IMG/VR virus record: IMGVR_UViG_3300028025_004319
Coordinates: 1 to 31,856 of that record
Strand: one strand, 5' to 3'
Length of the DNA: 31,856 nucleotides
Source of the DNA: a virus
Shown here: piece after piece, positions 20,639-27,719 of the stretch
Layout: each line of letters starts with the position of its first letter
Numbering within the stretch: the first letter of the stretch is position 1
Notes under the pieces: generated by a model
Told to the model about the DNA's origin: nothing
Database searches by the model: none
Seen by the model: only the letters and a program-made list of their open reading frames with translations
Made by a program: the position numbers and the translations under genes

Positions 20639-20691
20639 GTTTTATAGCCATCGTGCTAGTAACATTGTTCTTTTACAATTCGGGATTCTGT

Positions 20692-20765
20692 TGGGGATTG
20701 GTGTAGTGATAGCACAGGAGACTTTGACTCTCTTAGTACAAGTTTGATTCTTGTATCCCCTGCCA
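20692..20765 (+). tRNA. tRNA-Gln (TTG)
   Basis: Anticodon stem GGAGA/TCTCT with loop CTTTGAC. The first base pair would be T1-T72, a weak end like the T1-A72 of glutamine tRNAs. T-arm ACAAG/CTTGT; CCA encoded after G73. First gene of the array. Confidence 0.88.
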
Positions 20766-20804
20766 AACAAATGTACATTTGTACGAGGAAGTGTGCATCT
20801 GTTT

Positions 20805-20878
20805 GGGAGTATAACTTAATGGTAAAGTAGTAGGCTTTTAACCTATTAATCAGAGTTCAATTCTCTGTGCTCCTACCA
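20805..20878 (+). tRNA. tRNA-Lys (TTT)
   Basis: Acceptor GGGAGTA pairs with TGCTCCT; anticodon loop CTTTTAA; T-arm CAGAG/CTCTG; CCA encoded. Confidence 0.92.
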
Positions 20879-20884
20879 ATTTAT

Positions 20885-20959
20885 GGTGTCGTTAGTTTAG
20901 TGGTAAAACTGCGGGTTGTGATTCCGCCATCATGAGTTCGATCCTCATACGATACCCCA
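20885..20959 (+). tRNA. tRNA-His (GTG)
   Basis: Anticodon loop TTGTGAT. The extra G at position -1 faces C73, the histidine-specific identity pair, so the gene start is set at that G. CCA encoded. Confidence 0.94.
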
Positions 20960-20967
20960 ATTTTTAT

Positions 20968-21043
20968 GCCAAGATAGCTCATCAGGTAGAGCACTAGTTT
21001 GAAGCACTAGGTGTGGTTGGTTCGAGTCCAACTCTTGGTACCA
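20968..21043 (+). tRNA. tRNA-Phe (GAA)
   Basis: Anticodon stem CTAGT/ACTAG with loop TTGAAGC. G follows the anticodon (position 37), where bacterial Phe tRNAs carry A37. CCA encoded. Confidence 0.9.
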
Positions 21044-21049
21044 AATTAT

Positions 21050-21124
21050 TCCCGATTAGCTCAGCGGTAGAGCACTCGCTTGATAAGCGATAGGTCAGTG
21101 ATTCGAATTCACTATTGGGAACCA
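21050..21124 (+). tRNA. tRNA-Ile (GAT)
   Basis: Acceptor TCCCGAT/ATTGGGA; anticodon loop TTGATAA; T-loop TTCGAAT; CCA encoded. Confidence 0.92.
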
Positions 21125-21131
21125 AAGTTAT

Positions 21132-21223
21132 GGAAGATGATGCAGCGGTGATGGTACTGCGACCAGCCTTGAAAACTGGGTCTCGAGAAATCGGGTGGGG
21201 TTCGACTCCTCCGTCTTCCGCCA
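21132..21223 (+). tRNA. tRNA-Ser (TGA)
   Basis: 92 nt with the long variable arm of a class II tRNA (GTCTCGAGAAATCGGG region). Anticodon loop CTTGAAA; G73; CCA encoded. Confidence 0.92.
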
Positions 21224-21231
21224 TATTATGT

Positions 21232-21306
21232 GCCTCGTTAACTCAGTGGTAGAGTGTCTCTTTTACACGGAGAAGGTCGGCAGTTCGAATCTGTCACGAG
21301 GTACCA
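21232..21306 (+). tRNA. tRNA-Val (TAC)
   Basis: Acceptor GCCTCGT/ACGAGGT; anticodon stem TCTCT/GGAGA, loop TTTACAC; CCA encoded. Confidence 0.93.
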
Positions 21307-21312
21307 AGTTAT

Positions 21313-21388
21313 GCCCGATTGGTGAAATGGATGATCATACTGTGCTACGAACGCAGAGGTAGAGGTTCAATTCCTCTATTGGGTACCA
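21313..21388 (+). tRNA. tRNA-Arg (ACG)
   Basis: Anticodon stem CTGTG/CGCAG with loop CTACGAA; A34 is presumably converted to inosine by host TadA as in bacterial Arg2. CCA encoded. Confidence 0.93.
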
Positions 21389-21395
21389 AGATTTT

Positions 21396-21469
21396 CTGGG
21401 TGTAGGATAATGGTAGTCATCGAGTCTTGGAGTCTCGAAGCGCAAGTTCGATTCTTGCCACCCAGACCA
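21396..21469 (+). tRNA. tRNA-Pro (TGG), first copy, unusual A37
   Basis: Acceptor CTGGGTG/CACCCAG; loop CTTGGAG gives TGG. Bacterial proline tRNAs have G37, methylated by TrmD; here the base is A, and the top anticodon pair is T-T. The second TGG gene at 24007 has G37. Identity is therefore somewhat uncertain. Confidence 0.75.
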
Positions 21470-21475
21470 GAGTTA

Positions 21476-21565
21476 GGAAGATGGGCAGGACGGTAATGCA
21501 GCAGTTTGCTAAACTGTAGATTCACGGAAGTGGGTCATAGGGTTCGATTCCCTAATCTTCCACCA
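21476..21565 (+). tRNA. tRNA-Ser (GCT)
   Basis: 90 nt, long variable arm; anticodon stem GCAGT/ACTGT with loop TTGCTAA; acceptor GGAAGAT/ATCTTCC; CCA encoded. Confidence 0.93.
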
Positions 21566-21570
21566 GTATT

Positions 21571-21645
21571 GGGCTGGTAGCTTAATGGTAAAGCAGTGAA
21601 CTCATAATTCATTGAGTCTGTGTTCAATTCACAGTCAGCCCACCA
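21571..21645 (+). tRNA. tRNA-Met or Ile2 (CAT), first elongator type
   Basis: Acceptor GGGCTGG/TCAGCCC is fully paired at 1-72, so it is not an initiator. Loop CTCATAA. CAT could be elongator Met or a lysidine-modified Ile tRNA; the sequence alone does not settle it. Confidence 0.9.
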
Positions 21646-21650
21646 ATACC

Positions 21651-21727
21651 TGATGCTGTGCAGGTTAAGGCGCAGCAGTCCTATCCCAAGGATCACTGAC
21701 ACTAGAATGTCAGACCGATGAGCATCG
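21651..21727 (+). ncRNA. tRNA-like cloverleaf RNA in a tRNA spacer
   Basis: TGATGC (21651-21656) pairs with GCATCG (21722-21727), enclosing three arms in tRNA order: TGTGC/GCGCA (8-nt loop), GTCCT/AGGAT (6-nt loop) and TGACA/TGTCA (6-nt loop). It differs from a tRNA: no T-loop consensus, 9 unpaired bases between arm 3 and the closing stem, and no CCA. Either a decayed tRNA or a separate structured RNA. Confidence 0.55.
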
Positions 21728-21745
21728 CAAGTCCTACCACGGATG

Positions 21746-21767
21746 CCGATGGACGATAAATTGGGAA
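21746..21767 (+). repeat. Partial duplicate of a tRNA 5' half
   Basis: CCGATGGACGATAAATTGGG plus AA repeats bases 21812-21830 of the neighbouring tRNA, with a 3-nt insertion (GAT). A GGATT/AATCC hairpin (21787-21799) follows. It looks like a remnant of an unequal tRNA duplication; the rest of 21728-21808 holds no gene. Confidence 0.55.
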
Positions 21768-21808
21768 GCAGTAGTTAGCAGTGGGAGGATTTTTAATCCG
21801 CAGTTTAT

Positions 21809-21886
21809 ACCCCGATGGACAAATTGGGAAAGTCGTCTCTCTCAAAAGGAGAAATGTTGTGAGTTCGAATCTCACTCGGGGTACCA
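21809..21886 (+). tRNA. tRNA with CAA anticodon (Leu), short variable loop
   Basis: Acceptor ACCCCGA/TCGGGGT, D-stem GAC/GTC, anticodon stem TCTCT/GGAGA with loop CTCAAAA, T-arm GTGAG/CTCAC, A73, CCA. CAA reads the Leu codon TTG, but the variable region is only about 6 nt, whereas bacterial tRNA-Leu is class II with a long arm. All other helices are intact. Confidence 0.8.
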
Positions 21887-21891
21887 AGATG

Positions 21892-21920
21892 TTGACTTGC
21901 AAGATTGCTTGCGGTATAAT
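21892..21920 (+). promoter_or_regulatory. Promoter P7 (TTGACT-17-TATAAT)
   Basis: 17-bp spacer starting TGCAA. The -10 box ends 8 nt before the first base of tRNA-Leu(TAA), so the mature 5' end is almost the transcription start. Confidence 0.85.
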
Positions 21921-21928
21921 AGAGATAT

Positions 21929-22012
21929 GCGAGTGTGGTGGAATGGTATACACATCAGACTTAAAATCTGACGCTTAATTGATTGAGGGTTCAAGTCCCT
22001 TCACTCGTACCA
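21929..22012 (+). tRNA. tRNA-Leu (TAA)
   Basis: 84 nt class II tRNA with a normal long variable arm; anticodon stem TCAGA/TCTGA, loop CTTAAAA; CCA encoded. Directly downstream of P7. Confidence 0.95.
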
Positions 22013-22014
22013 AT

Positions 22015-22089
22015 ACGGCATTAGTATAATGGATAATACAGTAGGCTTCTACCCTACGAATGTGGGTTCGATTCCTGCATGCCGTGCCA
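22015..22089 (+). tRNA. tRNA-Arg (TCT)
   Basis: Acceptor ACGGCAT/ATGCCGT; anticodon stem GTAGG/CCTAC with loop CTTCTAC; CCA encoded. Only 2 nt after tRNA-Leu. Confidence 0.93.
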
Positions 22090-22096
22090 GAATTAT

Positions 22097-22170
22097 GTAG
22101 GTGGAGCCAGTTGGACAGGCACTGGATTGCAAACCCATGGAAGTGAGTTCGATTCTCACCACCTACTCCA
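22097..22170 (+). tRNA. tRNA-Cys (GCA)
   Basis: Acceptor GTAGGTG/CACCTAC, loop TTGCAAA and T73, the Cys identity base; the anticodon stem has an A-C mismatch. CCA encoded. Confidence 0.92.
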
Positions 22171-22171
22171 G

Positions 22172-22196
22172 ATAACCTTACAATGTTGAGGGTTAT
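22172..22196 (+). terminator. ATAACC/GGTTAT hairpin (cassette copy 3)
   Basis: Bases 22172-22179 pair with 22189-22196 (8 bp including one G-T) directly after tRNA-Cys, 12 nt before the -35 box of P8. Confidence 0.55.
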
Positions 22197-22208
22197 TGAA
22201 ATGAGATG

Positions 22209-22237
22209 TTGACTTATAATGATGTTTGCTGTATAAT
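22209..22237 (+). promoter_or_regulatory. Promoter P8 for the structured RNA region
   Basis: TTGACT-17-TATAAT. No ORF follows; the predicted start (about 22244) is the 5' end of a long structured non-coding stretch. Confidence 0.85.
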
Positions 22238-22243
22238 TATGTC

Positions 22244-22450
22244 TTAGTTGGTTAGGAATTCAAAAGTCCCTTCTAGGTCTTTGTTGCGAAACAAAGCATA
22301 GGGCACAGTGGTCTGAATGTTGCAACTCGCTTACATTCTCCCACTAGGTTGTTTCAAAACGCAAAGCACGCAGAAATGCAAAACGCTGAGCAGGAAACAT
22401 TAAATGAGCTGGTCTCAGCCAAGAGTTTGGTGGTTCTCTAAAAACCACCA
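22244..22450 (+). ncRNA. Structured RNA, domain 1 (own promoter)
   Basis: No ORF. Local helices: CTTTGTT-GCGA-AACAAAG (22279-22296) inside CCCT/AGGG (22268/22300); AGTGG/CCACT (22307/22341) enclosing GAATGT/ACATTC (22315/22333); GCTGAG/CTCAGC (22385/22414); GGTGGTT/AACCACC (22429/22443). CTAGGT occurs twice (22273, 22345). No terminator separates it from tRNA-Glu, so the transcript should continue. See the finding on a GOLLD/ROOL-type RNA. Confidence 0.65.
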
Positions 22451-22454
22451 CCAT

Positions 22455-22529
22455 ACTCGATTCGTCTATCGGTTAGGACAGTGGGTTTTCAGTCCATTAA
22501 GAGGAGTTCGACTCTCCTATCGAGTACCA
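22455..22529 (+). tRNA. tRNA-Glu (TTC), embedded in structured RNA
   Basis: Acceptor ACTCGAT/ATCGAGT; anticodon stem GTGGG/TCCAT, loop TTTTCAG; T-arm GGAGT-type with CCA. It lies between domain 1 (ends 22450) and domain 2 (begins 22531), with 1-4 nt separating them. Confidence 0.92.
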
Positions 22530-22530
22530 G

Positions 22531-22759
22531 ATTTAATTGCATTGGTTACCAAGCCAGTAGGTGATTCAGTTAGTGAGTAACCAGTTGACGGACTGGCACT
22601 TCTGAGTTACACGAAAGATGGAAACGAAGCCGAAAGGTGGATACGGTGGTCACGCTGGAACAACTTGGAATGTAATGTGTGCGACAGACAAGTCCATGGA
22701 CGGCATGGTAGGGCAGGTTCAAAACTGTTTATTCTGTCAAACACCCAGTGTAATTAAAT
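22531..22759 (+). ncRNA. Structured RNA, domain 2 (13-bp closing helix)
   Basis: ATTTAATTGCATT (22531-22543) pairs with AGTGTAATTAAAT (22747-22759), 13 bp with two G-T pairs. Inside: TGGTTAC/GTAACCA (22543/22577), the alternative GCCAGT/ACTGGC (22553/22592), CCGAAAGG tetraloop (22630), CCATG/CATGG (22694/22704), and GTGT plus GACAGA (22677-22688) with TCTGTC plus ACAC (22733-22744). No usable ORF, no match to tmRNA or RNase P landmarks. Confidence 0.7.
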
Positions 22760-22760
22760 G

Positions 22761-22913
22761 TGGTATTAGTTTAGTGTTATCAAGGTATGTGGTCTGATCA
22801 ATCACTACTCGACAGTAAGGGTGCGACCGACACTGTCTGATATAACTGTTATTCGCTTGTCAGTGCTAGCTACATTGTTGACAAATTGGCACGATAACAC
22901 TAAACTAATATCA
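22761..22913 (+). ncRNA. Structured RNA, domain 3 (21-bp closing helix)
   Basis: Bases 22761-22781 pair with 22893-22913 over 21 bp (20 Watson-Crick, one G-T), far beyond chance. The 111-nt interior has GACAGT/ACTGTC (22811/22832), TTGTCA/TGACAA (22857/22879) and an anticodon-arm-like GTGGT-CTGATCA-ATCAC (22789-22805). tRNA-Tyr begins 1 nt later. Could also be read as an inverted-repeat element. Confidence 0.75.
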
Positions 22914-22914
22914 T

Positions 22915-23007
22915 GGAGGTATTGTAGATATGGCGTGTTCTGCAGCGGACTGTAAATCCGTTCCCGTGTGGTAAACAATGTTGGTTCGACTCCAACTACC
23001 TCCACCA
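22915..23007 (+). tRNA. tRNA-Tyr (GTA)
   Basis: 93 nt class II tRNA; acceptor GGAGGTA/TACCTCC, anticodon stem GCGGA/TCCGT with loop CTGTAAA; long variable arm; CCA encoded. Confidence 0.94.
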
Positions 23008-23015
23008 AGTTTTTA

Positions 23016-23090
23016 GGCTCGTTAGTATAATGGTCATTACAGCGGATTGTCTATCCGCTTATGGGAGTTCGATTCTCCCACGAGTCGCCA
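23016..23090 (+). tRNA. tRNA-Asp (GTC)
   Basis: Acceptor GGCTCGT/ACGAGTC, anticodon stem GCGGA/TCCGC with loop TTGTCTA, G73 as expected for Asp; CCA encoded. Confidence 0.95.
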
Positions 23091-23096
23091 AGTTTT

Positions 23097-23222
23097 GTAA
23101 GTGTCAGCAAGAGAAAGACTCGCTAGGAAGATTCTTCGAAGGTCAACTTAGTGTAAAAGTAGATTCGGTTCGAATCCGACTAGGCTACGGAGCGTCTATG
23201 TCAAGTATCCAAAGTGACTTAC
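23097..23222 (+). ncRNA. Structured spacer with tRNA-like arms
   Basis: GTAAGT (23097-23102) pairs with ACTTAC (23217-23222). Inside, CGCT/AGCG (23121/23191) encloses GAAG/CTTC, ACTT/AAGT with a 7-nt loop, and TCGG/CCGA with a perfect T-loop TTCGAAT (23165-23179). The arms copy the style of a tRNA D-arm and T-arm without an anticodon arm or CCA. Probably a relative of the other structured spacers. Confidence 0.55.
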
Positions 23223-23227
23223 CGATT

Positions 23228-23278
23228 CCCGCTCGAGCTTGTTAATTCGGGTGAATGGTTCCAATAATGTGGTGGAAC
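23228..23278 (+). other. Hairpins before the gene at 23313
   Basis: CCCG/CGGG (23228/23248) around a GCTCGAGC palindrome, then GTTCC/GGAAC (23258/23274). No T-run; possibly processing signals or leader structure of the next gene. Confidence 0.35.
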
Positions 23279-23312
23279 AACTTACAAATTCAATGTTGTT
23301 GAGGAAATGAAT

Positions 23313-23657
23313 ATGGAAAAGATGTTAGGAAAGGTGTTCACTTCGGTGACACAAGATGGTAGCGAGATGGTGTTTGCGAACGAAACTGAGAGATTCAGAT
23401 TCTTCCACTATCAAGATTGTTGCGAGTCAGTTCACATCGATGACATCGTTGGTGATTTGTCTGACTTAGTAGGTGAACCACTGTTGATGGCTGAAGAAGT
23501 ATCTGGTGAAGCACCTGTGTTAGATGATTATCATGATGTGGTTGAGTGGACATTCTACAAGTTTGCCACTCGCAAAGGATATGTTGATGTGCGTTGGATG
23601 GGTGAGTCAAATGGCTACTACTCAACTAGCGTTGACATGGAACATGAGTTAGTATAA
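23313..23657 (+). CDS. Small phage protein, DUF7448-like
   Basis: 114 aa inside the tRNA array. GAGGA is 7 nt before the second ATG, which is therefore preferred over the ATG at 23307. The pattern FRFFHYQDCCESVHIDDIVG followed by DLSDLVG, and the end FYKFATRKGYVDVRWMGESN plus GYYSTSVD, recurs in many phage genomes under the name DUF7448 as I recall it. Function unknown. Its last base is 7 nt from tRNA-fMet. Confidence 0.78.
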   Translation: MEKMLGKVFTSVTQDGSEMVFANETERFRFFHYQDCCESVHIDDIVGDLSDLVGEPLLMAEEVSGEAPVLDDYHDVVEWTFYKFATRKGYVDVRWMGESNGYYSTSVDMEHELV

Positions 23658-23664
23658 AGTTTAT

Positions 23665-23741
23665 CGCAGAGTATGGAAGTGGTCATCCGTCTGGTCTCAT
23701 AAGCCATGAAATCGCAGGTTCGAATCCTGCCTCTGCAACCA
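23665..23741 (+). tRNA. tRNA-Met (CAT), initiator-like
   Basis: The C1xA72 mismatch (CGCAGAG against CTCTGCA), CAACCA end, 77-nt length and loop CTCATAA resemble bacterial initiator tRNA. The three G-C pairs of the anticodon stem are only partly present (G29-C41, G30-C40, then T-G). Confidence 0.85.
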
Positions 23742-23755
23742 AGTTAGAAATGAAT

Positions 23756-23839
23756 GCCCCGATGGTGGAATGGTAGACACGCTGGTCTTAGAAGCCAGTG
23801 TCGCAAGGCGTGAGAGTTCGAGTCTCTCTTGGGGCACCA
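23756..23839 (+). tRNA. tRNA-Leu (TAG)
   Basis: Class II with long variable arm; acceptor GCCCCGA/TTGGGGC; anticodon stem CTGGT/GCCAG, loop CTTAGAA; CCA encoded. Confidence 0.95.
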
Positions 23840-23845
23840 AATTTA

Positions 23846-23920
23846 GGTGATGTAGCACAACGGTAGTGCATCTGCTTCATACGCAGGAGGTTAGTGGCTC
23901 GATTCCACTCATCACCACCA
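23846..23920 (+). tRNA. tRNA-Met or Ile2 (CAT), second elongator type
   Basis: Acceptor GGTGATG/CATCACC fully paired; loop TTCATAC. The T-loop starts with C instead of T54 (CTCGATT). One of the two elongator-type CAT genes is likely to be Ile2 for ATA codons. Confidence 0.9.
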
Positions 23921-23926
23921 TATTAT

Positions 23927-24001
23927 TCCAGTGTAGCACAGCGGTAGTGCAGTTGACTGTTAATCAATTGGTCGTAGGTTCGATCCCTGCCACTGGAGCC
24001 A
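23927..24001 (+). tRNA. tRNA-Asn (GTT)
   Basis: Acceptor TCCAGTG/CACTGGA; anticodon stem GTTGA/TCAAT, loop CTGTTAA; G73; CCA encoded. Confidence 0.94.
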
Positions 24002-24006
24002 AGTTT

Positions 24007-24083
24007 CGGAGTATAGCGCAGTCTGGTAGCGCATCTGCTTTGGGAGCAGAGGGTCGTAGGTTCGAATCCTACTACTCCGACCA
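24007..24083 (+). tRNA. tRNA-Pro (TGG), second copy
   Basis: Acceptor CGGAGTA/TACTCCG; anticodon stem TCTGC/GCAGA, loop TTTGGGA with the normal G37. It resembles bacterial tRNA-Pro much more than the copy at 21396. Confidence 0.95.
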
Positions 24084-24085
24084 TT

Positions 24086-24093
24086 TATAAGTA
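24086..24093 (+). promoter_or_regulatory. TATAAGTA late-promoter-like element
   Basis: TTATAAGTAGT lies between tRNA-Pro and the ATG at 24102. The same 11 bases occur at 27629-27639, again just before a gene start. It differs by one base from the T4 late consensus TATAAATA. Confidence 0.35.
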
Positions 24094-24101
24094 GTGGTGA
24101 T

Positions 24102-24755
24102 ATGAAACGCATGGCATTATTTTTGCATCATCCTGAATGCTCAGAAGACTGTGCATTTGCGATGGTACATTCGTTGTCGTCAGAGTATCAGGTAAGAATT
24201 TTCACTGAGAAGGAATTAGATGATGATAATTTCTTTGACAATCTTGATGTTATTGCTTTTCCTGGGGGTATTGGGGATAGCGACAGTTATCCTAATTTCT
24301 TCACTAGAACAAGAGCGAATCGAATCGCCAGATTCTTGGATGGTGGTGGTCACTATCTTGGCATCTGCATGGGTGCTTATTGGGCTGGAAGCAGGTATTT
24401 CGATATACTTACTGATGTTAGTCCAGTTCAGTACATAAGGCGACCAAATGCAACTGTTCGCAGAAGTTATGGAACAGTGGCAGAGATACAGTGGAATGGA
24501 ATAAAAGAACAGATGTACTTCTATGATGGTTGTGCACTGATTGGAGACGAAAGTAAATTTAAGACTGTCGCACGATATGCCAATGGTGATCCAATGGCAA
24601 TCATACAGGGAAGAATAGGATTGATAGGTTGCCATCCAGAAGCACCTTTGTATTGGTATGAGAAACCATGGCAATACATAAACAAACATTGGAATGATGG
24701 AAGACACCACACACTGTTATTAGATTTTGTAAATGAATTATGCTCTGTTAGTTAA
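24102..24755 (+). CDS. Class I glutamine amidotransferase-like / BPL_N protein
   Basis: 217 aa. Nucleophile-elbow motif GICMGAYWAG with C89, preceded by FPGGIGDSDSY, and a candidate His in GLIGCHPEAPLYW; the arrangement matches the biotin-protein-ligase N-terminal (BPL_N) branch of the class I glutamine amidotransferase fold. The substrate is unknown; in phages and bacteria such stand-alone domains are orphan. It sits inside the tRNA array behind TATAAGTA, and its last 14 bases form the 5' end of tRNA-Thr(TGT). Confidence 0.8.
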   Translation: MKRMALFLHHPECSEDCAFAMVHSLSSEYQVRIFTEKELDDDNFFDNLDVIAFPGGIGDSDSYPNFFTRTRANRIARFLDGGGHYLGICMGAYWAGSRYFDILTDVSPVQYIRRPNATVRRSYGTVAEIQWNGIKEQMYFYDGCALIGDESKFKTVARYANGDPMAIIQGRIGLIGCHPEAPLYWYEKPWQYINKHWNDGRHHTLLLDFVNELCSVS

Positions 24756-24815
24756 ATGGTAGAACATCGGTTTTGTAATCCGAGGATGGGAGTTCGATTC
24801 TCTCACGGAGCACCA
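24742..24815 (+). tRNA. tRNA-Thr (TGT), overlaps a CDS
   Basis: Acceptor GCTCTGT/ACGGAGC; anticodon stem TCGGT/TCCGA, loop TTTGTAA; CCA encoded. The first 14 bases are also the final codons and stop of the preceding protein gene. Confidence 0.94.
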
Positions 24816-24834
24816 ACTATTACTGGAGAATGTC

Positions 24835-24972
24835 GTGTCACCAAAAGAAATATTAGAGAAAGCATACGGAAACATTCCCAAAGAAGTAGGAATGTATCAT
24901 AATTGGGGTGTCCCAACATGGAGAGGTTTTAAGTATTACTGGTATAAGTTTACCAGAAAAGTAACAAGATAA
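24835..24972 (+). CDS. Small basic protein between tRNAs
   Basis: 45 aa from a GTG start with GGAG 7 nt upstream (VSPKEILEKAYGNIPKEVGM start). The ATG at 24830 is out of frame and hits a stop early. The C-terminal WRGFKYYWYKFTRKVTR is aromatic and basic. Family unknown. Confidence 0.5.
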   Translation: MSPKEILEKAYGNIPKEVGMYHNWGVPTWRGFKYYWYKFTRKVTR

Positions 24973-24977
24973 GTTTC

Positions 24978-25052
24978 GGGGGATTGGTATAATTGGGAAC
25001 ACAGTAGCCTTGCAAGTTACAGTTAGCGGTTCGATTCCGCTATCCTCCACCA
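24978..25052 (+). tRNA. tRNA-Ala (TGC)
   Basis: Acceptor GGGGGAT/ATCCTCC with the G3-T70 pair, the alanine identity element; anticodon stem GTAGC/GTTAC, loop CTTGCAA; A73; CCA encoded. Confidence 0.95.
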
Positions 25053-25056
25053 GTAT

Positions 25057-25132
25057 GCCCACATAGCTCATTTGGTAGAGCAACGCACTAGTAATGCGTA
25101 GGTGGTCAGTTCGAATCCGACTGTGGGCACCA
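25057..25132 (+). tRNA. tRNA-Thr (AGT), unusual A34
   Basis: Acceptor GCCCACA/TGTGGGC; anticodon stem ACGCA/TGCGT, loop CTAGTAA. AGT would read ACT; A at position 34 is normally seen only in Arg(ACG) in bacteria. All helices are sound. Confidence 0.88.
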
Positions 25133-25153
25133 GATTAATTTTAGGAGAATTAT

Positions 25154-25324
25154 ATGAGTGATGGTGGCAAAGGTAGCAAAGCAAGACCATTCAGTGTAAC
25201 ACAAGATGAATATGAGAATCGTTGGAATGCAATTTTCCAACGAGACGATGTTGTGAGTAAGTCAGAAGCGAAAAGAATAGCCACTATGGAAATGGCTAAT
25301 GAAGAAGTAGAAGATAAAGATTAA
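25154..25324 (+). CDS. Small phage protein, GxKGSKxRPFSV type
   Basis: 56 aa, SD TAGGAGAA. Start MSDGGKGSKARPFSVTQDEY and following ENRWNAIFQ form a pattern (GGKGSxxRPFSVxxxxFxxxWxxIF) that recurs in small phage proteins of unknown role. The C-terminal half is acidic. Its stop is followed by one base and then tRNA-Trp. Confidence 0.68.
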   Translation: MSDGGKGSKARPFSVTQDEYENRWNAIFQRDDVVSKSEAKRIATMEMANEEVEDKD

Positions 25325-25325
25325 T

Positions 25326-25399
25326 ATCTCTCTGGTGTAATGGCAGCACGATGGTCTCCAAAACCATTAGTCGGGGTTCGAGTCCCTGGAGGGGTGCCA
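25326..25399 (+). tRNA. tRNA-Trp (CCA)
   Basis: Acceptor ATCTCTC/GAGGGGT (two G-T pairs); anticodon stem ATGGT/ACCAT, loop CTCCAAA; G73; CCA encoded. Confidence 0.93.
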
Positions 25400-25432
25400 G
25401 TAAAGTCCACTGAATATAAAGAGGTGGCAGAT

Positions 25433-25473
25433 TAATCACCGAAAGGTTTGATTAGCGCAGGTGGAAACCCTGC
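25433..25473 (+). ncRNA. Twin hairpin spacer between tRNA-Trp and tRNA-Gly
   Basis: TAATC-a-CC-GAAA-GG-ttt-GATTA (25433-25454) followed by GCAGG/CCTGC (25457/25469, 7-nt loop). A GNRA-capped hairpin inside a tRNA spacer, like the larger structured spacers. 25400-25432 shows nothing further. Confidence 0.45.
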
Positions 25474-25479
25474 ACCAAT

Positions 25480-25553
25480 GCGGGGTTAGTTTAATGGTAA
25501 AACTGTAGATTTCCAATCTTCCGTTGAGAGTTCGATTCTCTCACTCCGCTCCA
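25480..25553 (+). tRNA. tRNA-Gly (TCC)
   Basis: Acceptor GCGGGGT/ACTCCGC; loop TTTCCAA; T73 as in Gly tRNAs; CCA encoded. It ends one base before the converging minus-strand gene. Confidence 0.93.
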
Positions 25554-25554
25554 A

Positions 25555-26046
25555 TTATGTGTGTTTAGATATTAGTATATTAAACATGATAGTGACCAAT
25601 GGAATTATGATCATTAGAGAAGCCATGATCCAAAGAGTAGCCATCAGCACTTGTGCTTTTAGTTCTCTGTCTTTTTGTTTTTGTTTTTCTATTCTGGCAT
25701 CATTTGCAGTTCGTTCGTCAAGCATTCGTTTTCGTTCAGCCATCATCTCTTGCCAAACTGGAGCATTACCTGACCAAACCAAAATGTCTTTGAGTTCTCT
25801 TTCATAGTCCCGCAATGCTTTTGATGCCATTGCCAACTGTAATGCCTGAGCACCGATTTGTGCATCGCTTAATCGGATGCTCTGAACCTTTAATGTGATG
25901 CTTGCTCTATGAACTTCGTCAGCGTGATGATAAAATTGACTAAACTCGCCAATAAGACTATTGATGTCTTTACCAAGTGCGACTGCCTTTTTGATACCTG
26001 CGACTGCTCCTTGAGCCAGTGCGAATGCTGTAAATGGATCAATCAT
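25555..26046 (-). CDS. Membrane protein, paralogue of the gene at 8096
   Basis: 163 aa (MIDPFTAFALAQGAVAGIKK start). The N-terminal signature, the ALQLAMASKALRDYERELKD segment followed by ILVW, and the C-terminal transmembrane helix (MATLWIMASLMIIIPLVTIM) match the 256-aa protein at 8096, of which it is a shorter version lacking about 60 internal residues. It is one of only two convincing minus-strand genes here, and starts in an ATGA overlap with the small gene upstream. Function unknown; likely late and envelope-associated. Confidence 0.85.
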   Translation of the reverse strand: MIDPFTAFALAQGAVAGIKKAVALGKDINSLIGEFSQFYHHADEVHRASITLKVQSIRLSDAQIGAQALQLAMASKALRDYERELKDILVWSGNAPVWQEMMAERKRMLDERTANDARIEKQKQKDRELKAQVLMATLWIMASLMIIIPLVTIMFNILISKHT

Positions 26047-26201
26047 GTTCTAAATACAAATGGTTTATCTTTTAATTCCCACTGTAAACAGGTAACATTA
26101 CCATCAACGGCAGATGAAACCCATTTCCATCGAATACAAACATATTCTTTGTTTTTATCCAGTGGAGGTGGTGGTGGAGCAATAACCAAGAGAATGGACA
26201 T
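26043..26201 (-). CDS. Small Pro-run protein upstream of the minus-strand membrane gene
   Basis: 52 aa (MSILLVIAPPPPPLDKNKEY start) with a short hydrophobic N-terminus, a five-proline run, and a Trp/Cys-rich body (VCIRWKWVSSAVDGNVTCLQ). The stop TGA overlaps the next ATG. An in-frame ATG at 26225 sits at the predicted transcription start of the TATAAATA promoter and would add 8 residues; neither start has a clear SD. Probably a small envelope protein expressed together with its neighbour. Confidence 0.6.
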   Translation of the reverse strand: MSILLVIAPPPPPLDKNKEYVCIRWKWVSSAVDGNVTCLQWELKDKPFVFRT

Positions 26202-26229
26202 TGCACAAGAAGAGAATTTAATCATTAGG

Positions 26230-26237
26230 TATTTATA
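26230..26237 (-). promoter_or_regulatory. T4-type late promoter (TATAAATA) on the minus strand
   Basis: An exact match to the T4 late consensus, pointing left into the two minus-strand genes; transcription would start near 26224. Confidence 0.6.
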
Positions 26238-26247
26238 AGGAAGCGTT

Positions 26248-26724
26248 ATGCGTAAAGACATCAACATTGATGAAGTAAAAGATTTCATCTTGGCACAGAC
26301 TCCCGAATCAAAGATCTATATTGGTGGAGATTCTGAACGATTTAATATCGGTGATGAATTCTATGCTGATTATATCTTAGTGATTGTTGTTCATATCAAC
26401 GGTAATAATGGTTGTAAAATCTTCGGTGAAGTGTCTCGTGAAAGATGCTACGACCAGAAAAAAGATAAACCAAGAATGCGATTAATGAATGAAGTATACA
26501 AGATTGCAGACTTATACCTTAAACTGCATGATGTTCTGGAGGACAGAGAAGTCCAAGTGCATCTGGACATCAATCCAGACGAAATGCATGGATCATCTTG
26601 CGTAATCAACGAAGCAGTTGGTTACATTAAGGGTATGTGCAATGTTGTACCATTTGTTAAACCAAATGCGTTTGCTGCAAGTTATGCAGCAGATAGATAC
26701 AAGTCATACATGCGTGCTGCTTGA
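26248..26724 (+). CDS. RNase H-like fold protein, DUF458/YkuK-like
   Basis: 158 aa, SD AAGGAAG. SKIYIGGDSERF at about 20-31 is the first acidic strand of the RNase H-like fold; VQVHLDINPDEMHGSSCVIN carries the second acidic cluster, and VVPFVKPNAFAASYAADRYK ends with the last Asp. This arrangement matches DUF458 (YkuK), a predicted RNase H-like family without known activity. It runs divergently from the late minus-strand pair. Confidence 0.78.
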   Translation: MRKDINIDEVKDFILAQTPESKIYIGGDSERFNIGDEFYADYILVIVVHINGNNGCKIFGEVSRERCYDQKKDKPRMRLMNEVYKIADLYLKLHDVLEDREVQVHLDINPDEMHGSSCVINEAVGYIKGMCNVVPFVKPNAFAASYAADRYKSYMRAA

Positions 26725-26749
26725 CATGCAATGAATATTGATGTATAAT
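26721..26749 (+). promoter_or_regulatory. Promoter P9 (TTGACA-17-TATAAT)
   Basis: Consensus boxes; spacer starts TGCAA as in P4. It overlaps the stop codon of the DUF458-like gene and drives the gene at 26782 with a 25-30 nt leader containing AAAGGAG. Confidence 0.9.
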
Positions 26750-26781
26750 AATGTTATTGAATTGAATTAAAGGAGTTAAAT

Positions 26782-27369
26782 ATGCAAACAATTAATCTAC
26801 GCAAAGCCAATGCGTTGCAAAGCGAGATCCGTAAAGCGATCTCTAGTTCTGGTGTTAGCGATACTGCTACCATCACTGAGTACAGCAAAGACATTGCTGG
26901 TGGTCTTGAGAAAGCAATGGCAGATTATGCCAGCGATGTCATGCGCAAGTTGGCATTGAACACTGCGTTGTTTAACATTCGTAAGAGTGTTGCTCAAGCA
27001 AATGCGAGTAATGGTATTAGCGATATCCTTACAGATGTTGAGTTGATCGATGCCAAAATGGCAGTATACAGCGCAGTTGCTACCAAAGCAGTCGCTAAGA
27101 CTCTAGACGAGATTAATGCTCGTGTTGAGAAGTTGAAGGCAACACCAACTGATGCTTCTCGTGCATCTGCCATCTATGGTGATCGTTACAGCACTGTGGA
27201 AACATCTGTTGTTGAGCAAAGCACTATTGATGGTGCCAAGCTAAATGTCAAACAATTGAAGCGTGAAAAACAAACTCTTCAAGATAAGTTGTTGGCTCTA
27301 AATGTCAACACAGTAATTGATATCGATACTGTTGATGAGATGGTATTGAAGGTAGAAGGAATTCTTTAA
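26782..27369 (+). CDS. Conserved phage protein, mostly helical
   Basis: 195 aa with its own promoter P9 and strong SD. Basic N-terminus (MQTINLRKANALQSEIRKAI) followed by long amphipathic helices and a C-terminal coiled-coil-like stretch (KLNVKQLKREKQTLQDKLLA). I have seen proteins of this shape in T4-like phages of alpha- and other proteobacteria without a function. A strong promoter and direct linkage to the structured RNA at 27376 are notable: the RNA would form its 3' untranslated region unless cut off. Confidence 0.72.
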   Translation: MQTINLRKANALQSEIRKAISSSGVSDTATITEYSKDIAGGLEKAMADYASDVMRKLALNTALFNIRKSVAQANASNGISDILTDVELIDAKMAVYSAVATKAVAKTLDEINARVEKLKATPTDASRASAIYGDRYSTVETSVVEQSTIDGAKLNVKQLKREKQTLQDKLLALNVNTVIDIDTVDEMVLKVEGIL

Positions 27370-27375
27370 AGTTTA

Positions 27376-27625
27376 GAGGAACAGTGCGAATAAGAGAGCA
27401 GATGGATAGTTGCAAAAACTAATATCCTACAAAGATATTGGCTTGGTCTTGAAAACCAAATCCGAACCATCTGTCCGACCCTTGTTTTTGCTCCACGATT
27501 ACACTAGACTGTTATAGTCGCTGCTTGTTGCTTCGTGGTTTTATAACTTTTGTGGACTGTTTATTGAATGTTGTTGCTTGCATATTGCATAGCGACTATT
27601 CGCTTGAATTGACTCATTGTTCCTC
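27376..27625 (+). ncRNA. Candidate structured RNA, nested and possibly pseudoknotted
   Basis: GAGGAACA (27376) pairs with TGTTCCTC (27618), then GCGAATA (27386) with TATTCGC (27597). Inside is a cloverleaf: CAGATGG/CCATCTG (27399/27467) enclosing TAGTT/AACTA, ATATC/GATAT and TTGGT/ACCAA arms, the latter two with 7-nt loops. Next CCACGA/TCGTGG (27493/27533), and TAGTCGC/GCGACTA (27515/27592), which crosses it as a possible pseudoknot. No ORF, no CCA, no T-loop; it fills the whole 270-base gap. Confidence 0.72.
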
Positions 27626-27629
27626 ACCT

Positions 27630-27637
27630 TATAAGTA
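27630..27637 (+). promoter_or_regulatory. TATAAGTA element before tRNA-Gly
   Basis: Second copy of TTATAAGTAGT; the tRNA starts 7 nt later. Confidence 0.35.
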
Positions 27638-27644
27638 GTAATAC

Positions 27645-27719
27645 GCAGGATTAATTCAGTGGTAGAATGTTTCGTTGCCAACGAAAATGTCATCGGTTCG
27701 AACCCGATATCCTGCTCCA
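27645..27719 (+). tRNA. tRNA-Gly (GCC)
   Basis: Acceptor GCAGGAT/ATCCTGC; anticodon stem TTTCG/CGAAA, loop TTGCCAA; T73; CCA encoded. It stands apart from the main array by 2.1 kb. Confidence 0.95.

Follow-up and report, generated by a model that had tools for sequence, protein, structure and literature searches.

A putative new family of structured RNAs in phage tRNA arrays

The tRNA arrays of dozens of uncultured phages contain what is, by comparison of its relatives, a previously uncatalogued RNA family, domain 2 (d2), whose kind is that of the large structured phage RNAs of tRNA islands. Here, we describe this RNA in a linear 31.9-kb IMG/VR virus record (IMGVR_UViG_3300028025_004319), which was analysed at its full length of 31 856 nucleotides (the window). 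An earlier note had read positions 22244–22913 as one possible giant RNA with an embedded tRNA-Glu, either GOLLD or ROOL or a new class of the same habit; it is the last of these that the analysis bears out: the RNA covaries, is uncatalogued and sits in tRNA arrays of phages. Both GOLLD and ROOL assemble into nanocages, and the function of these phage RNAs is unknown; many GOLLD members exceed 800 nt, and ROOL is found in phages and prophages near tRNA islands (PMC12286853). The d2 family joins the few large, structured RNAs of phages whose function is unknown, and its comparative proof is firm; structured RNAs such as d2 share operons with GOLLD. As a small form (~230 nt, with tRNA-free copies), it lends itself to experiment much more readily than GOLLD or ROOL.

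A modular region within a tRNA array

The window contains 28 tRNA genes, arrayed at 20692–27719 on the + strand throughout. Between tRNA-Cys and tRNA-Tyr lie approximately 745 nt whose + strand holds no 60-aa open reading frame (ORF) and whose sole interruption is tRNA-Glu. This accords with the earlier note, in which 22244–22913 was said to lack a plausible gene (no + strand ORF of at least 60 aa is present), to follow a promoter and to include a tRNA-Glu; promoter and tRNA both lie where they had been placed (table 1). A near-consensus promoter is found no more than 800 nt upstream of 57 of the 85 copies of d2; 0.09 would be expected per 800 nt. The region would form the 5′ portion of a transcription unit for phage stable RNAs, comprising the promoter, leader d1, tRNA-Glu, d2, d3, tRNA-Tyr and more tRNAs.

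Compared across relatives, the region is a set of three shuffling modules: the leader (d1), a conserved core of ~230 nt (d2) and an exchangeable, optional 3′ domain (d3). Each is found without the others in relatives, and the 670 nt are therefore a composite and not one molecule by descent; the idea of a single d1–d2–d3 RNA of that length was dropped. Both P1, which closes d2, and the closing helix of d3 begin at tRNA ends.

Table 1. Features of the region in window coordinates.
Feature	Position	Strand	Remarks
sigma70-type promoter	22209–22237	+	TTGACT-17-TATAAT; precedes ORF-less stretch
leader hairpin d1a	22266–22305	+	GUCC..GGGC closing, GCGA loop; 17 distinct copies compared
second leader hairpin	22307–22345	+	AGUGG..CCCACU; from fold, alignment and pattern scan with GTTGCAACTCGCNTACA
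leader module d1b	22347–22421	+	GGUUGUUUC..GAAACAUUAAAUG..CAGCC; ~75 nt
hairpin GGUGGUU/AACCACC	22429–22449	+	just 5′ of tRNA-Glu; GGUAGUU/AACUACC in relatives; from fold and alignment
tRNA-Glu (ttc)	22455–22529	+	3′ ACCA pairs into following module (d2)
CCA clamp, 5′ side	22526–22529	+	tRNA-Glu A73-C74-C75-A76 pairs with UGGU 22761–22764
domain 2 (d2), conserved core	22531–22759	+	~230 nt; covariance model R1; one copy per contig
d2 P1, 5′ strand	22531–22545	+	pairs with 22745–22759
d2 P2, 5′ strand CCAAG-CCAG	22549–22557	+	pairs with CUGG 22655–22658 and CUUGG 22664–22668; from fold and alignment
d2 P3	22561–22610	+	22561–22569/22602–22610; apical hairpin P3a 22581–22596, loop G[AC]CG
d2 P4	22617–22651	+	interior variable (length, sequence): missing in L165, longer in L193
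d2 sequence-conserved core	22652–22677	+	ACGCTGGA...GTAATG; GTAATG part kept in subfamily 2 too
d2 P5	22683–22738	+	22683–22688/22733–22738 (P5 from fold); hairpin P5a 22694–22708; invariant pentaloop GACGN
domain 3 (d3), type A	22761–22913	+	closed by 22761–22781/22893–22913; optional, swappable for types B, C
tRNA-Tyr (gta)	22915–23007	+	5′ end 1 nt past d3

The leader hairpins were found where the earlier note had put them, and their fold beats dinucleotide shuffles weakly in the single sequence (z = −1.8, 8/200). Among the copies of d1a, the outer stem varies in a compensatory manner (CCCU/AGGG, CCAC/GUGG, CCUC/GAGG and CCUU/AAGG, as read from 17 distinct copies). Module d1b is shared by the window, L009, L161, L164, L175, L201, L203, L204 and others; it sits behind promoters, in several relatives often with a boxA directly after it.

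The 21-bp helix that had been proposed to close domain 3 is confirmed, with 95% complementarity, and the fold of d3 lies well outside its dinucleotide shuffles (z = −5.2, 0/200). There are at least three types of d3, of which A and B retain the end helix through compensatory changes. The domain is absent in L009 and L109, and types A and B are also found right after tRNA-Asp, -Gly, -Glu or -Leu with no d2 immediately preceding.

Compensatory change, relatives and novelty of d2

Relatives were gathered via the neighbouring BPL_N-like gene (24102–24755), which gave 80 loci, five of them holding the region and four of these different. A neighbour search with the 2OG-oxygenase gene yielded few useful loci; three pattern scans of IMG/VR raised the total to 64 distinct d2 sequences of what we term subfamily 1, or 54 once redundancy was removed. 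These 54 form alignment A2, made with plain MAFFT and not structure-fitted, from which consensus pairs were drawn by RNAalifold.

On this comparative evidence, d2 is a truly folded non-coding RNA, proven by compensatory change. RNAalifold predicts 54 pairs in A2, with 97.5% of cells paired and both-sided change in 41 of the 54. The covariation score of d2 is 0.494, against 0.187 ± 0.006 in shuffled alignments, a comparison inflated by kinship among the sequences, and no more than 0.073 on sliding the partners by 1–3 columns, a control that retains kinship yet favours the structure drawn from the same alignment. Scores likewise exceed the shuffled values in d3-A (0.321 versus 0.131) and d3-B (0.319 versus 0.121). 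The domain 2 closing helix exists and is slightly longer than the 13 bp claimed (table 1); in P1, clamp included, 15 of 17 pairs have changed on both sides and 97.6% are paired. Both-sided change extends to 17 of the 18 pairs of P3 and P3a and to four of the five in P5a, where 100% of alignment cells are paired. GNRA-type loops, said to recur, do exist as GCGA and GAAA; the strongly conserved loops are instead G[AC]CG (P3a) and GACGN (P5a). As a single sequence, the d2 of the window also folds better than dinucleotide shuffles, alone (z = −3.3, 2/200) and with d3 (z = −4.6, 0/100).

A covariance model, R1, scores the d2 of the window at 256 bits, the window itself being in the training set. 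Two loci outside that set are matched, with rough E-values: L203, a locus with no tRNA (180 bits, E ~1e-48), and L103 (67 bits, E ~1e-17). The former is laid out as promoter, d1b, d2 and next promoter, the latter as promoter, d2 with a 24-bp P1 and next promoter; tRNA-free d2 behind its own promoter also occurs in L213, L235 and others. A scan for the core of L103 and L083 gave further loci on contigs of up to 356 kb. R1 recognizes most of these loci (E 2e-19 to 4e-8); some (e.g. L214, L216, L224) have the core pattern yet score under the R1 threshold. Of the divergent subfamily 2, 17 distinct d2 sequences were collected. Its 15 non-redundant sequences have the same topology and helix order as subfamily 1, with double changes in 38 of 60 pairs, and share with it the hairpin loops G[AC]CG and GACGN and the core GUAAUG. 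When 24 whole contigs were searched, 20 held one full-length d2 each and the other four, subfamily-2 contigs, gave no R1 match. Across 1.13 Mb of contigs and with E allowed up to 0.1, R1 found nothing beyond tRNA arrays or d2 loci; second, short matches of ~100 nt proved to be other clamp-closed inserts and not d2.

Most subfamily-1 copies are located in tRNA arrays. The clade of the window has the order Glu-[d2](-d3)-Tyr, and others have Gln-[d2]-Glu, Glu-[d2]-Lys/Asn/Asp/Cys and more. In L083, L205 and L216, which have no tRNA before d2, the 5′ strand of P1 also serves as the 3′ side of a hairpin further upstream (ATAGT..ACTATATG..CATATAGT); the two helices would therefore be mutually exclusive, a possible switch. 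One array that bears d2 also holds a permuted tmRNA (L150:5104–5436, − strand; RF04321, 122 bits).

The identification with GOLLD or ROOL was not supported. A cmscan of the window region against all of Rfam 15, at E up to 10, returned tRNAs and sub-threshold noise, with no GOLLD and no ROOL; the region thus falls short of the 150-bit gathering score that defines GOLLD membership (RF02032). The same library detects GOLLD in two relatives, L156 (201 bits) and L233 (202 bits), a positive control that applies to GOLLD and not to ROOL. Neither ARAGORN nor Rfam found a tmRNA in the region. The L156 operon runs from promoter, boxA and hairpin through d2, d3-B, tRNA-Asp, -Glu and -Tyr to a GOLLD with tRNA-Lys inside, which lies 3′ of d2–d3, ~800 nt from d2 and with three tRNAs between. 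As this tRNA operon bears both RNAs, d2 is a family separate from GOLLD, and a GOLLD identity of d2 is refuted as regards the conserved GOLLD domain. GOLLD was matched in two of the 24 d2 contigs (L156, L233) and not in the other 22, the contigs being fragments; on one contig of more than 350 kb, a d2 family RNA adjoins GOLLD.

The d2 unit resembles GOLLD in being phage-borne, in or beside tRNA arrays, elaborate in structure, without a protein and able to hold a tRNA, and the window element has the setting typical of GOLLD, in a phage or prophage close to tRNAs, one of which may lie within. It differs in its conserved sequence and helices, its ~230-nt core, its modular d3 and the clamping of a tRNA CCA end, besides the missing model match. 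With ROOL, it shares phages, prophages and the vicinity of tRNA islands; it differs in giving no model match and in size, d2 being about one-third of the 659 nt of ROOL env-120. An abundant non-coding transcript of roughly 800 nt is described from phage ICP1 (PMC7567579). Likened by description, this too is a large untranslated phage RNA of unknown role; it differs in having been seen in a single phage and in having no tRNAs. The tRNA cluster of phage T4 yields the small stable RNAs C and D, which by description are similar in being stable, in not being tRNAs and in being cut from the tRNA transcript of a phage.

Searches with four d2-family queries (blastn) against 50 697 phage records gave tRNA matches or none, and no d2; two exact core patterns had no match in GTDB contigs of cellular genomes. 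The queries being so limited, the absence holds for them alone. R1 found no match in four whole tRNA-rich cultured phages, a number of genomes that proves little, and literature searches among open-licence papers turned up no description of a d2 RNA.

The CCA clamp and boxA leaders

Where a tRNA precedes d2, the P1 helix continues through the tRNA 3′ end in A2. At each of the four clamp positions (columns 4–7/296–299), at least 53 of the 54 sequences are paired. In a clade with no preceding tRNA, these positions still pair, using other bases (column 6/297: CG 43, UA 10). In 43 of 1479 distinct tRNA 3′ ends, CCA and the next 7 nt find an exact complement 20–320 nt downstream; permuted downstream sequence gave 0.97 on average and never more than 4 in 200 permutations, and moving the arms 30 or 60 nt onward left 1 and 0 cases. 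Homologous copies are counted separately in the 43, so that independent cases are fewer, and the inserts are nonetheless of many unrelated kinds. Of these clamps, 17 belong to d2. The others close d3 or a large variety of unrelated small inserts, among them decayed tRNAs; unrelated inserts are closed in this way after the tRNAs for Gln, Lys, Leu, Asp, Gly, Thr and Tyr. Four cultured tRNA-rich phages, with 50 tRNAs, have no clamp.

The earlier view of a tRNA embedded in the RNA is better recast: through its CCA end, tRNA-Glu pairs into the helix that closes the next module. In the window, the UGGUA engaged by that end is also the first strand of the d3 helix, and clamp and full d3 helix would therefore compete. 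The clamp argues that tRNA maturation is involved too. We know of no such mounting device, a closing helix that captures a tRNA CCA end, from the literature.

Small inserts right behind a tRNA CCA, with a closing helix that includes the CCA, occur in L107, L109, L143, L175, L201, L237 and others. Inserts of this type very often contain ..AAACACA/TGTGTTT.., and that of L107 is a degenerate tRNA. A clamp-type helix is also seen at a GOLLD end, where a hairpin immediately 3′ of GOLLD (L233:6206–6299) starts CCATATGCAAACACATT and ends AGTGTGTTTCCATATGG. An insert of L054 between tRNA-Glu(ctc) and tRNA-Pro was considered as d3 and rejected as another RNA: its ends are d3-like, but R1 gives no match. 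Behind the tRNA-Glu(ctc) of that locus, a promoter is followed by a very long hairpin, GGTTGTTTCTTCTAAAAGAGC..GCTCTTTTAGAAGAAACAAC (L054:4107–4360), and before tRNA-Pro stands a 192-nt element closed by TGTTAGGTGTGGTGTTATGG..CCATAACACCACTCCTAACA (L054:4355–4546), another uncatalogued RNA in a similar setting.

The motif TG[CT]TCTTTAA[AC]A is the antitermination box (boxA) of rRNA operons. Strand sequence totalling 5.1 Mb has 37 copies of it, of which 35 lie just upstream of a tRNA or d2; shuffled sequence has none. An rRNA-type boxA (TGTTCTTTAAAAA) is seen in phage tRNA operon leaders such as L156:1439, L204(−):10914 and L161:7300. In the window, the d2 leader lacks a good boxA, and a copy with three mismatches precedes tRNA-Gln at 20666. 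Phage tRNA arrays recall rRNA operons through their long closing helices and interspersed tRNAs and, in many relatives, a boxA ahead of the first stable RNA; they differ in that the RNAs enclosed are non-ribosomal, with RNase III processing postulated by analogy. A tentative generalization, to which we give somewhat less than an even chance, is that these arrays are more than stores of tRNAs, being rrn-like stable-RNA operons antiterminated through boxA. Behind their tRNAs, a long closing helix that captures the CCA would serve to mount a motley of structured, interchangeable RNAs: d2, types A–C of d3, GOLLD and many small ones. The clamp and the boxA leaders provide concrete, testable hypotheses for the expression and processing of phage tRNA arrays.

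Proposed function, alternatives and neighbouring elements

We favour, with a confidence a little above even, the reading that d2 would be a trans-acting structural RNA, cut from an rrn-like stable-RNA operon and released in the infected cell. With rRNA operons as the model, boxA-type antitermination would keep transcription going across the untranslated RNA, and the long closing helices would serve as RNase III processing stalks, as in 16S and 23S rRNA. Removal of the flanking tRNAs by RNase P and 3′ tRNA processing would leave a free RNA of ~230 nt (d2) or ~385 nt (d2 with d3). GOLLD is a homo-oligomeric nanocage, a 14-mer, and ROOL is likewise homo-oligomeric; the freed RNA would act in trans as a structural or scaffold RNA, as supposed for these two, and its invariant GACG loops would dock it either to itself or to a partner from the host or the phage. 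This reading is supported by the covariation of d2 and d3, subfamily 2, the stand-alone single copies, dedicated promoters, boxA, the clamp and the operon shared with GOLLD in L156. Against it counts the want of a good boxA before d2 in the window.

That most subfamily-1 copies lie in tRNA arrays also fits a role in cis, in which d2, d3 and other inserts serve the tRNA operon: CCA pairing would set the pace of 3′ maturation or shield it, position the RNase cuts and hold the tRNAs apart, and the interior would have no function in trans. We consider this unlikely, if still a serious contender. The CCA is paired in nearly every tRNA-preceded copy, the same device closes unrelated inserts behind seven kinds of tRNA, and d3 types are interchangeable, all of which a cis role would explain; it sits badly with the single tRNA-free copy retained behind its own promoter, with the high conservation of the interior loops and of the core ACGCTGGA..GTAATG, and with an interior architecture common to two subfamilies. 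Because a stand-alone d2 gene exists without tRNAs, d2 is more than a tRNA spacer, and these copies and the conserved interior together argue against a mere spacer.

An improbable alternative is a mobile DNA element, a MITE-like inverted-repeat insertion at tRNA 3′ ends. It would account for the 21-bp inverted ends of d3, its clean absence from two relatives and its occurrence behind differing tRNAs in different phages, but arms and interior helices diverge between copies through paired compensatory changes, each contig has one copy, the position between Glu and Tyr is fixed in a whole clade and no target-site duplication was recognized. Habitat, similar size, a tRNA within the unit and co-residence in L156 and L233 would suit a divergent GOLLD or ROOL RNA, or a variable 5′ part of one; given the empty Rfam search, the distance between the two RNAs in L156 and the 22 fragmentary contigs with no GOLLD match, this is very improbable. 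Chance folding of an AT-rich spacer, or debris of decayed tRNAs, is hardly credible: degenerate tRNA pieces do occur elsewhere in arrays, as in the L107 insert, but chance folding is refuted by covariation far above shuffled and slid controls, and R1 finds L203 and L103 outside its training set.

Several other elements of the window's array were seen. A second promoter-like site, TTGACTTGCAAGATTGCTTGCGGTATAAT (21892–21920), stands immediately before tRNA-Leu(taa), with 79% identity over 34 nt to the d1 promoter region. Spacers at 21646–21808 and 23100–23210 hold tRNA-like pieces (e.g. TCGGTTCGAATCCGACT at 23165) that were not called as tRNAs, and 23091–23306 has a partial relative in L129. Two proteins are encoded within the array: the BPL_N-like product of 24102–24755 is glutamine-amidotransferase-like (Pfam BPL_N) and matched by no fewer than 598 stretches of viral contigs, and 23307–23657, between tRNA-Asp and tRNA-Met, encodes a DUF7448 protein (phrog_2650).
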